Shown in pieces: positions 7,513-19,712 of a DNA stretch of 22,208 bases. Origin of the DNA: a virus; the IMG/VR virus record IMGVR_UViG_3300033146_000866, positions 1 through 22,208 of that record, one strand, 5' to 3'. The notes under the pieces were generated by a model. That model did not search any database. It saw only the letters and a program-made list of their open reading frames with translations, and was not told the origin of the DNA. The position numbers and the translations under genes were made by a program. Within the stretch, counting starts at the first letter, position 1, and each line of letters opens with the position of its first letter.

Positions 7513-7666
7513 GAATATCCTTTATCGTAAAATATCATACTATAATTAATGATATCACATTAAGTTTAAATTAATCTTAAATTAAGAATAATTTTGATAC
7601 AATTTGGTAATATAAGAAAATATTATGATCTTGATATGATCTTTATATAATATAGAAAGGACTACT
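7513..7666. promoter_or_regulatory. Divergent promoter region between capsid and terminase operons
   Basis: 154 bp of very AT-rich DNA. On the plus strand a 13-bp odd palindrome, TCTTAAATTAAGA (7575-7587), lies ten bases before the extended -10 TGATACAAT (7595-7603), matching the promoter architecture seen before several right-arm genes. A second possible -10 (TATAAT, within 7645-7656) lies nearer the small terminase gene. On the minus strand toward the scaffold gene, TATAGT and TGATATTTT sit between about 7525 and 7545 and may serve as a -10. The palindrome is shared by both directions and could be an operator. Confidence 0.5.
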
Positions 7667-9821: not shown

Positions 9822-9859
9822 CGTGAGTACAAAGTAGTGTTGGGTGATCACAAAGTGGT

Positions 9860-9977
9860 GATAGGTCACAAGCAAATATAATATAAATTTATTTTATAAC
9901 AGTCAAAACTGGGATAGGTCACAAGTAGATATAATATAAATTTATTTTATAACAGTCAAAACTGGGATAGGTCACAA
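9860..9977 (+). repeat. 53-bp tandem direct repeat, two copies plus a partial third
   Basis: Copies start at 9860, 9913 and 9966 with a constant 53-bp period. Each begins GATAGGTCACAA and continues through an AT-rich core to AACAGTCAAAACTG. The first two differ at only a few bases; the third stops after about 12 bases. A related GTGATCACAAAG sequence lies just upstream at about 9845. The location directly after the terminase genes leaves open a packaging, termination or protein-binding role. Confidence 0.92.
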
Positions 9978-10092: not shown

Positions 10093-10123
10093 ACAAATAA
10101 TATATTAAATCATTTAATCCCAC

Positions 10124-10145
10124 TTTAAGAATAAAATGATATAAT
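10124..10145 (+). promoter_or_regulatory. Promoter, extended -10 (first of a tandem pair)
   Basis: TTTAAGA at 10124-10130 is followed nine bases later by TATAAT (10140-10145) within the extended -10 TGATATAAT. No TTGACA-like -35 is present. The same arrangement recurs 92 bp downstream. Confidence 0.65.
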
Positions 10146-10209
10146 ATAGTATATAAAGAGGTGGCTGATACTACCATAGATTTACCTCTAAATATATTAA
10201 TCGATTTAA

Positions 10210-10237
10210 TCTTAAATTAAGAATAAAATGATATAAT
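10210..10237 (+). promoter_or_regulatory. Promoter for the 149-aa gene
   Basis: The palindrome TCTTAAATTAAGA (10210-10222) precedes the extended -10 TGATATAAT (10229-10237), with TATAAT at 10232-10237. The palindrome is identical to the one in the terminase promoter region. Transcription would start near 10244, about 50 bp before the ATG at 10293. Confidence 0.7.
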
Positions 10238-10292: not shown

Positions 10293-10742
10293 ATGACAAA
10301 AAGAGAACAATACGAAGTTATAGAGAGCTGGCTTAAAGGTGTTAAGGTTTCAAAGGTGGCGGCAGAAGAACTTCTGAACCATTTTAGACCTAGAGTGGCT
10401 AAACCTAAGAGAGAGATCGAAATTGAGGTTGACGGCCAGGGTTATAGATGGTGTACACGGCATAAGCAATATGAGCCGATTGAATGGTTTTTGCCACACC
10501 CTAAGGATAAGAATAAACTTCGCCCAGAGTGTGCACCGGCTACCTATAGATGGGTAGACTATGGTAAGAAAATCAATAAGGCTGTGAGAACGGGTGACGC
10601 AGCAGCTATTGGTGAATTGACCCTCACACGAAAAGGCCCTTATAATCTTGAGGCTGACCTTGAAGAATTTAAAGATAAGCTTGGTGAGATTCAGGCTGAT
10701 TTCTCTACTGATAGGGTAATCACAGAGGATTTACTCGATTAA
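10293..10742 (+). CDS. Cys/His phage protein, paralogue of the gene at 19245
   Basis: 149 residues. The N-terminus (YEVIESWLKG...AAEELLNHFRPR, about 7-34) is helical, followed by a beta-rich part with WCTRHKQYEP (Cys54, His57), HPKDKNKLRPEC (His69, Cys80) and a charged helical C-terminus. These residues might coordinate one metal ion. It aligns with the 155-aa protein at 19245 over the first 90 residues: shared YE...WL, AA.EL..HF.PR, CT.HK..EP and a later Cys. I do not recognise the family. The gene stands alone after two tandem promoters and before the 117-bp repeats, with AAAGGG ahead of its ATG. Strong, probably early expression is suggested by the promoters; function is unknown, and nucleic-acid binding is a guess. 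Confidence 0.8.
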   Translation: MTKREQYEVIESWLKGVKVSKVAAEELLNHFRPRVAKPKREIEIEVDGQGYRWCTRHKQYEPIEWFLPHPKDKNKLRPECAPATYRWVDYGKKINKAVRTGDAAAIGELTLTRKGPYNLEADLEEFKDKLGEIQADFSTDRVITEDLLD

Positions 10743-10780
10743 TCTAAGATAGAATCTTTATATCAATAAATATGAAGATT

Positions 10781-11052
10781 CTTCAATTAATCTTATTTTA
10801 AGAATCTTATGATCTAAATTTTAAATTTAAGATTCTTAGATCAGAATAATCTTAAAATAAGATTAATTTGATCTATAATGACATAAATTGAGTAAATCTT
10901 CAATTAATCTTATTTTAAGAATCTTATGATCTAAGCCTAAATTTTGAGATTCTTAGATCAGAATAATCTTAAAATAAGATTATTCTGATCTATAATGGTA
11001 TAAATTGAATAAATCTTCAATTTAATCTCATTTTAAGAATCTTATGATCTAA
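10781..11052 (+). repeat. 117-bp tandem repeat, two copies plus partial third
   Basis: Units start at 10781, 10898 and 11015, each with CTTCAATT(A/T)AAT, exactly 117 bp apart; the third breaks off after about 38 bp. Each full unit has an imperfect long inverted repeat: the left arm begins AATCTTATTTTAAGA and ends GATCTAA, and the right arm is its near-complement ending AAAATAAGATT. Each right arm is followed by TGATCTATAAT, giving a promoter-like element (TATAAT at 10874-10879 and 10991-10996). The middle of the unit differs between copies while the arms are kept. Confidence 0.95.
10850..10879 (+). promoter_or_regulatory. Promoter-like element in 117-bp repeat, copy 1
   Basis: TCTTAAAATAAGA (10850-10862), an inverted repeat like the TCTTAAATTAAGA boxes elsewhere, lies eleven bases before TATAAT (10874-10879). 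Copy 2 repeats the arrangement at 10967-10996. Together they could be tandem promoters reading toward the 55-aa membrane protein gene. Confidence 0.45.
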
Positions 11053-11208
11053 TCGTGAGGATCGATTCTGAGAGATTTTATCTCTCAGATAGGGAATCAT
11101 ATTCAGAAAGATTTTAAATCGATTTTTGATATGATTCTATTCGATTTGACCTATATTAATATAGATCAGAATATATCTGATCTATTCTAATCAAATGAAG
11201 GAGATAAA

Positions 11209-11376
11209 ATGAGAATAATTCTCAAAATAATAAGTATCGGGCTATTACTATTAAGTATGATGATGCTAGCGATGCACCATACTGATAATATGCTGAGTGA
11301 GAGTGGACTACATGCAGCTTTCGGGATACTATTGGTGGGATTCATAGGGTACTATATTTCAGATGTGCAGCGTTGA
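11209..11376 (+). CDS. Small membrane protein, 55 aa
   Basis: The frame starts at ATG 11209 after a strong AAGGAG five bases upstream and ends at TGA 11376. The protein reads MRIILKIISIGLLLLSMMML then a short polar loop AMHHTDNMLSESG, then HAAFGILLVGFIGYYI and SDVQR. Two hydrophobic segments (about 3-21 and 35-50) would span the membrane, with both ends likely on the same side. Small two-span phage proteins include holins and superinfection-exclusion proteins, but no lysis neighbour is present and no family is recognised. The position downstream of the tandem promoter-like repeats suggests separate control. Confidence 0.72.
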   Translation: MRIILKIISIGLLLLSMMMLAMHHTDNMLSESGLHAAFGILLVGFIGYYISDVQR

Positions 11377-11416
11377 GCAAGCGCTAACCCTGCATAATGA
11401 TCTCTGATTATCTATT

Positions 11417-11475
11417 CTTAAATTTTTCTTAAAGTAGTTTAAATTTTTCTTAATCTAATCTTAAATTTTTCTTAA
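11417..11475 (+). repeat. Three iteron-like 16-bp repeats with helical spacing
   Basis: (C/T)TTAAATTTTTCTTAA occurs at 11417-11432, 11438-11453 and 11460-11475. The starts are 21 and 22 bp apart, about two helical turns, so bound proteins would lie on the same face. This spacing is typical of replication-initiator or regulator iterons. Confidence 0.88.
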
Positions 11476-11517
11476 GAAATTAGGCCTAAAATAACCCACA
11501 TAAATCTATTTTATAGA

Positions 11518-11542
11518 AAATATTTAAATATTTAAATATTTA
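11518..11542. repeat. Palindromic AAATATTTAAATATTT site, first of four
   Basis: The ATTTAAAT-centred palindrome recurs at 11613-11636, 11700-11714 and 12277-12297, bracketing the two small HTH genes. A binding site for one of those proteins is a reasonable inference, though low-complexity AT sequence can repeat by chance. Confidence 0.75.
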
Positions 11543-11805
11543 GGCCTCCCACAACCCTATATATACCTTTATACCCCCCTATCTATGGATTTTGCATACA
11601 GTTTACCCCCCTAAATATTTAAATATTTCAAATATTTTCCAGATTTTGATAACCTAGCATAATAATTCTCATTTAATCATAATCTAATCAAATAATCAGA
11701 AAATATTTAAATATCATTTAATCTTAATTTAATTTTTATTTAGATATAATTAGAGATATAGATCATAGAAGAGAATCGATCATAAATTTCACAAAGGCAA
11801 CAACA

Positions 11806-12018
11806 ATGAAAGAACTACTTAGTAAGTTAGAAAAATATGAACAACACGACCATAGATACCACGCACTACTATTAGAACACACCGACGACATAATCAAGGA
11901 GGTAGGAATGACGAGCAAAACGAATGTGGCCAACCTGTTAGATATGAAACCACAGAAGTTCTCTACCGTATTCCAACTACTGTTAGGTTATAAGCATCTA
12001 AAGGACTCACATGCATGA
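11806..12018 (+). CDS. Small HTH-like protein, first of a paralogous pair
   Basis: 70 residues. The C-terminal half (about 27-66: DDIIKEVGMTSKTNVANLLD then MKPQKFSTVFQLLLGYKHL) reads as a helix-turn-helix of the CII/Cro-like type: helix, GMTS turn, VANLLDM helix, KPQKFST turn. It aligns along its whole C-terminal half with the next protein (D.I.K..G.TS...A......FST). AAAGG lies eight bases ahead of the ATG, and a TATAAT box is at 11745-11750. The stop lies 8 bases inside the next gene, so the two are coupled. Placed just before the primase-helicase gene and flanked by ATTTAAAT palindromes, it is probably a regulator of the replication operon or an origin-binding factor. The family is not recognised with certainty. 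Confidence 0.72.
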   Translation: MKELLSKLEKYEQHDHRYHALLLEHTDDIIKEVGMTSKTNVANLLDMKPQKFSTVFQLLLGYKHLKDSHA

Positions 12019-12277
12019 ACACATAGGACAAGACCCAGCACTGCTGTTTGAACTTGAATTTAATAGAGATAAGCCTAAAGACTGGGCTAAACAACCCTAC
12101 TTCATAGAGGCTTATATCTACATCAATTATGACAAAATAATGAAATTAATAGGCATCACCTCTCAAGCAAGAATAGCAGATATTATGAATATAACTCAAT
12201 CGCAATTCTCAACTATTGTTAGAACAATAACGGCTATAAAACAACACATAGATAGTAATCAACTAAGCATAGCATAA
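12011..12277 (+). CDS. Small HTH-like protein, second of a paralogous pair
   Basis: 88 residues. Residues about 41-80 (DKIMKLIGITSQARIADIMN then ITQSQFSTIVRTITAIKQHI) are homologous to residues 27-66 of the preceding protein and look like a CII-type helix-turn-helix. The N-terminal 40 residues differ and contain FIEAYIYINY. The ATG at 12011 overlaps the previous gene by 8 bases, and AAAGGA lies five bases ahead. An AATATTTAAATATTTAAATA site begins at its stop codon, 40 bp ahead of the primase-helicase. A heterodimer with its neighbour is possible. Confidence 0.72.
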   Translation: MHEHIGQDPALLFELEFNRDKPKDWAKQPYFIEAYIYINYDKIMKLIGITSQARIADIMNITQSQFSTIVRTITAIKQHIDSNQLSIA

Positions 12278-12320
12278 TATTTAAATATTTAAATATTCTA
12301 TCATCAAAGGATTAATAATA

Positions 12321-14738: not shown

Positions 14739-14765
14739 ATCTCATAATCTCATGAGATTTAATCT
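14732..14765 (+). terminator. Long perfect hairpin at the end of the primase-helicase gene
   Basis: Arms AGATTAAATCTCAT (14732-14745) and ATGAGATTTAATCT (14752-14765) pair over 14 bp with a six-base loop, overlapping the stop codon. The following sequence is CTATTTAAG, without a clear U-run, so it may be a weak terminator or an RNA-stability element. A promoter follows directly. Confidence 0.45.
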
Positions 14766-14769
14766 CTAT

Positions 14770-14791
14770 TTAAGATATAAAATGATATAAT
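14770..14791 (+). promoter_or_regulatory. Promoter for the small-gene cluster
   Basis: TTTAAGA (about 14769-14775) is followed by the extended -10 TGATATAAT (14783-14791), matching the promoters near 10140, 10232 and 19153. The leader contains a GTTAC/GTAAC hairpin around 14820-14837. Confidence 0.65.
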
Positions 14792-18934: not shown

Positions 18935-19244
18935 AATTCTTTACTATAAATCATTTGAGATCATATCAGAATATCATGAGAATCGATTCAGAGATCGATT
19001 TATGATCTCTGAATATCATTATATAATATAGAGATTTAAATCGATTCTAATGAGATTTGAGATCATATAGAGATTCTCAAATTGATCTATATCATTATAT
19101 AAATAAAGAGATAAATATTAATCGAATTAAGATTAAATTAAAGATAAATTGATATAATATGAATGAGGATATATTTTAGGTATATGGGAAATATATTTAA
19201 GATATACCATCAGGTATAAATAAAAATTTTTTAAAGGACCAATT
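18935..19244 (+). other. Non-coding 310-bp region with palindromes and promoter
   Basis: No gene. It holds a perfect 11-bp hairpin (ATTCAGAGATC/GATCTCTGAAT, arms 18986-18996 and 19004-19014), an 8-bp ATTTGAGA/TCTCAAAT pair (19055-19062 and 19075-19082), a 14-bp direct repeat ATTTGAGATCATAT (18952-18965 and 19055-19068), several GATC sites, and a promoter with TATAAT at 19153. A GGTATAT/ATATACC hairpin (19179-19208) forms in the leader. Confidence 0.7.
19130..19158 (+). promoter_or_regulatory. Promoter for the second Cys/His gene
   Basis: Upstream TTAAGATTAAATTAAAGA leads to the extended -10 TGATATAAT (19150-19158), TATAAT at 19153-19158. It has the same layout as the promoters at 10140, 10232 and 14783. 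Transcription would start near 19165 and give an about 80-base leader. Confidence 0.65.
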
Positions 19245-19712
19245 ATGGCGAAAAAAGACGATTATGAATTTGTGAGTAACTGGCTCGAGGCTAATGGCAT
19301 TGAAGGTGATGCAGCTAATGAGCTGAAAGGCCACTTTGAACCTAGGAGAGGTGGCGGAGCAGCTACACCAGAAGATTATACTGTGTTCGATGCGGAAGGC
19401 AACCCGGCATACGTGTTCTGTACAGTGCATAAGAAATGGGAGCCAGTGACAGATGGAGAGGGTAAACCACTTTTTAAAGAAAATGCAAAATCTAAAAACG
19501 GCCTGAGCAGATACTGTATCGAAGGGGACAAACAGTGGAAAGAGCGTGCAAAAGCTTTCAAAGCATCCAAAGATGCAGTCCTGCAAGACCTACTTGAAGG
19601 TGAGATCACAGGTGATGAAGCAAAAGAACTCATTACAGCAGCAGAAAAAGCACGTAAAGGCGATTTCGTAAGAGCAGATGGTCTTGGTGAAGATGAGCGA
19701 CCAGAACTGTAA
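19245..19712 (+). CDS. Cys/His phage protein, paralogue of the gene at 10293
   Basis: 155 residues. The N-terminus (YEFVSNWLEANG...AANELKGHFEPR) is helical; the centre has AYVFCTVHKKWEPV (Cys59, His62) and SRYC (Cys91); the rest is helical and charged (AKELITAAEKARKGDF), ending acidic. It aligns with the 149-aa protein at 10293: YE...WL, AA.EL..HF.PR, CT.HK..EP and the later Cys. The gene follows the same promoter type and precedes the SSB and polymerase, so a role in DNA replication or its control is a fair inference. AAAGGA lies six bases before the ATG. I do not recognise the family. Confidence 0.8.
   Translation: MAKKDDYEFVSNWLEANGIEGDAANELKGHFEPRRGGGAATPEDYTVFDAEGNPAYVFCTVHKKWEPVTDGEGKPLFKENAKSKNGLSRYCIEGDKQWKERAKAFKASKDAVLQDLLEGEITGDEAKELITAAEKARKGDFVRADGLGEDERPEL

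Follow-up and report, generated by a model that had tools for sequence, protein, structure and literature searches.

Five copies of a promoter-type box, arrayed head-to-tail and face-to-face in a 117-bp tandem repeat of a phage genome, are probably, if by no great margin of confidence, either a promoter array or a landing pad of several sites for an HsrA/CosR-type regulator of the host, with two possible rightward promoters and control over a neighbouring region of a small ORF, HTH genes and primase. The box matches the one before the rRNA genes of the probable, Campylobacter-like hosts, which suggests that the phage runs its own genes with a host master regulator. The array (10780..11052, 2.3 units) lies in a 22,208-base IMG/VR phage contig, the whole of which was analysed and is here called the window; its structural genes run leftward from ~7.5 kb, and its terminase and replication genes run rightward.

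Tandem Repeats Finder (TRF) recovered a period of 117 bp at 10780-11052 (2.3 copies, 91% matches, no indels, score 453), upholding the tandem repeat described in an earlier sequence-only reading, and a repeat search of the window placed the two full units at 10780-10896 and 10897-11013 with a mutual identity of 91%. The unit is not built on a single motif; it contains one box twice, at a distance of ~58.5 bp, with the better-matching strands of the two copies turned towards each other. This opposed orientation produces the long palindromes, with 33-nt arms at 91% complementarity in unit 1 (10785-10817/10836-10868) and 31-nt arms at 90% in unit 2 (10905-10935/10952-10982), and the array folds far more stably than shuffled sequence, both as DNA (z = -7.0) and as RNA (z = -7.3). 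The full units differ at 11 positions; six of these fall in a central stretch of 12 bp (10818-10829), and the boxes and TGATCTA are free of differences, so the arms are indeed kept while the centre varies, which with only two full copies is limited evidence of selection. The closing element assigned to each unit, TGATCTATAAT, is present in both full units, where it is followed by a linker of ~17 bp, and is missing from the third, partial copy. The GATC sites remarked upon in the repeat are locally dense: the 370 bp of 10811-11179 contain ten, and the window in its entirety 64. The ORF listing holds no frame of at least 50 aa within the array, and no Rfam family matched anywhere in the window. 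Two near-identical units and a part copy, with no ORF inside, resemble neither the repeat-spacer array of a CRISPR nor a transposase flanked by terminal inverted repeats, and the array is, as first read, neither gene, CRISPR nor transposon.

What sets the array apart is the condition of its -10 elements. Box A1 (10786..10817, plus strand) reads ATTAAT-cttat-TTTAAG, followed by TGATCTAAA in place of TGATATAAT; box A2 (10903..10934, plus) has the same box followed by TGATCTAAG; and box A3 (11021..11052, plus) reads TTTAAT-ctcat-TTTAAG, followed by TGATCTAAT. On the minus strand, box B1 (10836..10867) again reads ATTAAT-cttat-TTTAAG, and both it and box B2 (10953..10984) are followed by TGATCTAAG. 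In all five the in-register -10 is lost (TGATCTA) and reads TCTAAN, which lacks the A at -11 that sigma-70 needs. Read on the plus strand, however, B1 (10848..10879) and B2 (10965..10996) each contain a perfect TATAAT (10874-10879 and 10991-10996) that is displaced 1-2 bp out of register and without TG; B1 in this reading is a possible rightward promoter. It is this combination, a lost in-register -10 and two out-of-register TATAAT elements, that leads us to regard the array as a regulator landing pad built about two possible rightward promoters.

Intact versions of the same module occur elsewhere in the phage: a direct repeat of 11-bp period (TTTAAT-N5-TTTAAG) is followed, after a gap of 10-11 nt, by an extended -10 (TGnTATAAT), with the box standing directly before the -10 and no -35, an architecture that the array boxes fail to reproduce. 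In the window these complete promoters, all on the plus strand, precede the small terminase (7570..7603), orf10293 (10113..10145, with a second copy 92 bp downstream at 10205..10237), orf14830 (14758..14791, downstream of the primase) and orf19245 (19126..19158, with the direct, non-palindromic repeat ATTAAG-attaa-ATTAAA). A divergent promoter for the structural genes (7581-7549, minus strand) overlaps that of the small terminase, and a weaker copy of the array box lies at 11717. An early form of the box found nine matches in the window against 0.03 expected, and a search anchored on the extended -10 across eight phage records returned 53 sites carrying box and -10 together, with none in 40 shuffles. 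Nearly all of these sites sit just upstream of ORFs, 50 of the 53 having an ATG ORF within 300 bp. Since the spacer is palindromic in only 12 of the 53 promoters, what is conserved is TTTAAT/G-N5-TTTAAG as a direct repeat of 11 bp, common to all together with the extended -10; non-palindromic members (window 19126; G010 27187) rule out the palindrome as the essential feature. The sequence-only reading was thus best served in its suggestion of a tandem promoter array or landing pad, and less well in the weight it gave to the inverted repeat. Most simply, the array derives from the complete promoters, and would have been born when the phage's promoter module was duplicated both in tandem and in inverted orientation. 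Directly behind boxed promoters lie two small proteins, perhaps mutually related (10293-10742 and 19245-19712), counterparts of which recur in relatives (G010 10410-10769 and 44304-44735).

A terminase search yielded six relatives, including L005, L007 (a 42-kb genome, G001 hereafter), L008 and L009; searches of viral contigs with the primase, helicase and orf10293 gave no close relatives, and no phage was related to the window at the DNA level. Comparison of the arms with related phages, as had been proposed, found no 117-bp array with 33-nt arms among them; only the box is conserved. Viral contigs scanned for the exact box gave no match; a looser pattern did match, and boxes with the TGATCTA variant were found there four times. 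Tandem complete promoters follow the large terminase in several genomes: G001 has four, 84-91 bp apart, between that gene and the next, each keeping the -10 that the array units lack, L009 has two (81 bp apart) and the window two (92 bp apart). At the divergence of small terminase and structural genes, boxes that overlap or adjoin one another point in both directions in the window (7549-7603), G001 (38905-38928), G010 (41493-41509), L005 (3740-3771) and L008 (3647-3680), and in G010 an identical 17 bp serves both strands. The 97-kb phage G008, which encodes no homologue of any window protein, has 24 such promoters. The window also contains a 53-bp tandem repeat (9852-9977, 2.4 copies, 94%) just downstream of the large terminase, at the equivalent of which G001 has a 79-bp repeat. 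GATC is nearly absent from G009 (one site where 138 are expected) and G010 (two where 151 are), depleted in G008 (53 against 246) and G001 (66 against 151), and only mildly so in the window (64 against 80), which suggests avoidance of a GATC-cutting host enzyme.

The same element is found in cellular genomes. Scanning for TTTAAT-N5-TTTAAG-N7-TGnTATAAT with two mismatches allowed, and with the backward pattern as control (control genomes tallied by hand), we found it in 117 of the 150 genomes of Campylobacterota, where the control matched in 22; for Bacillota the corresponding figures are 33 and 22. Many of the Campylobacterota matches are near-identical copies inside one genome; among six loci examined, five lie upstream of 16S rRNA and one of 23S rRNA, and in Sulfurovum a match precedes tRNA genes. 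These rRNA operon promoters have the box, spacing and extended -10 of the phage element, as in TTTAATaaaacTTTAAGcttttatTGCTATAAT, and differ from the array in being single copies with a complete -10. With three mismatches, the Campylobacter phages NCTC12673 and CP81 gave eight and six matches (backward control 0) and CP220 gave 11 against four, whereas gammaproteobacterial phages with related terminases gave none or one; the Helicobacter phages KHP30 and 1961P and the Nitratiruptor phage NrS-1 gave none. NCTC12673 and CP81, which have TTTAAG-N5-TTTAAG-N7-TGnTATAAT at their promoters, are unrelated to the window phage. This distribution, with few matches in gammaproteobacterial relatives and 24 promoters in G008, is why the element seems to follow probable host more than phage ancestry. 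The host is probably a member of the phylum Campylobacterota. RNA-seq of NCTC 12673 identified two A/T-rich promoter motifs without naming CosR (PMC6024767); these may be the element described here. In CP220 (W11, FN667788) a related promoter element occurs three times in tandem at 43778-43956, with 73 bp from copy to copy. CRISPR spacers gave A+T-rich matches only, and a search for prophage relatives in Campylobacterota returned one distant terminase and no helicase. NrS-1, sought as a source of an equivalent array, has no repeats upstream of its CII-like and primase genes, the products of which gave no useful alignment with the window's proteins.

The best candidate for the regulator is HsrA/CosR, and binding by it is predicted from the form of the box. 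The consensus of HP1043/HsrA is TTTAAG-5 bp-TTTAAG, readable as a direct or an inverted repeat and replacing the -35, and 16S rRNA and tRNA promoters are among its strongest ChIP peaks (PMC5253667, PMC8345958), just as the host copies of the phage box stand at rRNA and tRNA promoters. CosR is its Campylobacter homologue, and the CosR sites published for C. jejuni follow a looser pattern (tttaAanAaAAaTtAtgaTTt; PMC3139631). A pair of TTTAAG-like hexamers 5 bp apart, here TTTAAT/ATTAAT-N5-TTTAAG, occurs in both the array and the single sites, and the exact TTTAAG-N5-TTTAAG occurs at G010 27187 and in NCTC12673. The likeness to HP1043/HsrA and CosR targets thus comprises the paired hexamers, the 5-bp spacer in place of a -35 and a -10 that sometimes has TG; the strongly conserved hexamer is the first in H. 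pylori and the second in these phages, and the array departs further from such targets in its disabled -10 and in boxes repeated head-to-tail and inverted. None of the eight phages tested encodes a Trans_reg_C domain, so that no phage-encoded OmpR-type regulator was found among them, and there are between six and 14 in each of three genomes from Campylobacterota, the phylum of the probable host. Because the phages lack Trans_reg_C and the same element stands before host rRNA genes, a host OmpR/PhoB-type protein is more likely to be the regulator than the phage HTH or Cys/His proteins that the sequence-only reading had nominated.

Combining these observations, the five boxes would bind a host-encoded OmpR/PhoB-type regulator, most likely a Campylobacterota orthologue of HP1043/HsrA/CosR. 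At the complete promoters, this protein would substitute for the -35 contact and recruit sigma-70 RNA polymerase; at the array, it would be held in an ordered multi-site complex around the displaced TATAAT at 10874 and 10991, driving or modulating rightward transcription of the early or replication region, with its small ORF at 11209, HTH genes and primase. Several points tell against this account: the array boxes, with their -10 lost and the B-unit TATAAT out of register and without TG, are not ordinary promoters; the hexamer order is opposite to that of H. pylori and the C. jejuni CosR sites are looser; the host is itself inferred, the spacer and prophage searches having given no link; and KHP30, 1961P and NrS-1 lack the element.

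Chief among the alternatives, though unlikely, is that the array belongs to a replication origin extending through the boxes and inverted repeats into a phased run of TTTAAG-like half-sites (11411..11481, minus strand, 10-11 bp phase) and an A+T-rich stretch of AAATATTT repeats (11518..11760) upstream of the HTH genes and primase, and opened by the host regulator or by transcription from the array. In favour of an origin count the A+T-rich repeats that follow the array and the primase close by, and repeated sites beside A+T-rich DNA and a replication gene are the architecture of an iteron origin, here as a matter of sequence arrangement only. Primary origins of the T7 type consist of tandem promoters and A+T-rich DNA, which the tandem promoter-like units by an A+T-rich region and replication genes recall; the window's element, however, is of host type, and the genome, which is partial, shows no phage RNA polymerase. 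The inverted repeats are strong, and it is here that TTAAG clusters reach their highest density in the window and in G001 alike: at the place of the array G001 has four TTAAG half-sites in 11-bp phase adjoining TGATCTAA, and this stretch (1451-1514), which partly conserves the phased run, aligns with it at 11404-11466. Yet no such array was found in G001, clusters of this box are also seen at places where they look like promoters only, and G+C skew tracks gene direction with no clear switch at the array. A+T-only palindromic repeats (AAATATTTAAATATTT), with CCCCCCTA close to them, precede the HTH genes and primase (11518-11542, 11612-11637, 11701-11714 and 12276-12297), and also in L013 (1970-2250); G001 has the same layout with another repeat, ATTATATAATTAT. 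These palindromes are possibly operators of the HTH proteins, changing together with them.

The loss of every in-register -10 while all five boxes are kept, and the identity of the box with that at host rRNA promoters, would also be expected of a decoy that titrates the host regulator off rRNA and tRNA promoters as phage DNA replicates. We consider this improbable: a genome with five sites has little to set against a regulator that has many, TATAAT survives in two places, and the array is not conserved in relatives. A broader proposition, about as unlikely as an origin, is that the array is a functional cluster of boxes without promoters, in which the phage multiplies, with the -10 disabled, the sites bound by an essential orphan response regulator of its host, either to titrate it from rRNA/tRNA promoters or to assemble a replication-start complex, and that unrelated Campylobacterota phages have converged on the host-rRNA-type box. 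More doubtful than either is a set of operators for a repressor or activator of the phage's own, such as the HTH proteins at 11806 and 12011; palindromic sites do cluster near the HTH genes, and TAGATCA/TGATCTA pairs recur at 11162-11185, but the box is also present in host genomes and in G008, which shares no protein with the window. The 11162-11185 site is a palindrome, TAGATCAGA-ATATA-TCTGATCTA, just upstream of orf11209, and has TAGATCAGAATA in common with the array. A neutral duplication relic, or an RNA hairpin acting in processing or attenuation of readthrough transcripts, would fit the strong RNA hairpins and the absence of the array from relatives, but is very improbable when unit differences are concentrated outside the boxes and no terminator-like site was found in the region.

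The use of host-type promoters by phages is known. In the open-access papers searched we found no link between the HsrA/CosR regulator and phages, nor any account tying the box to host rRNA promoters and HsrA/CosR or describing an array with a disabled -10. If the reading of the array as a landing pad for a host HsrA/CosR-type regulator is true, a single promoter class would be common to host rRNA operons and several unrelated phages, and phage transcription would be tied to HsrA/CosR, an essential host regulator whose full role is unsettled. The element would also provide a sequence signature by which metagenomic phages could be given Campylobacterota hosts.
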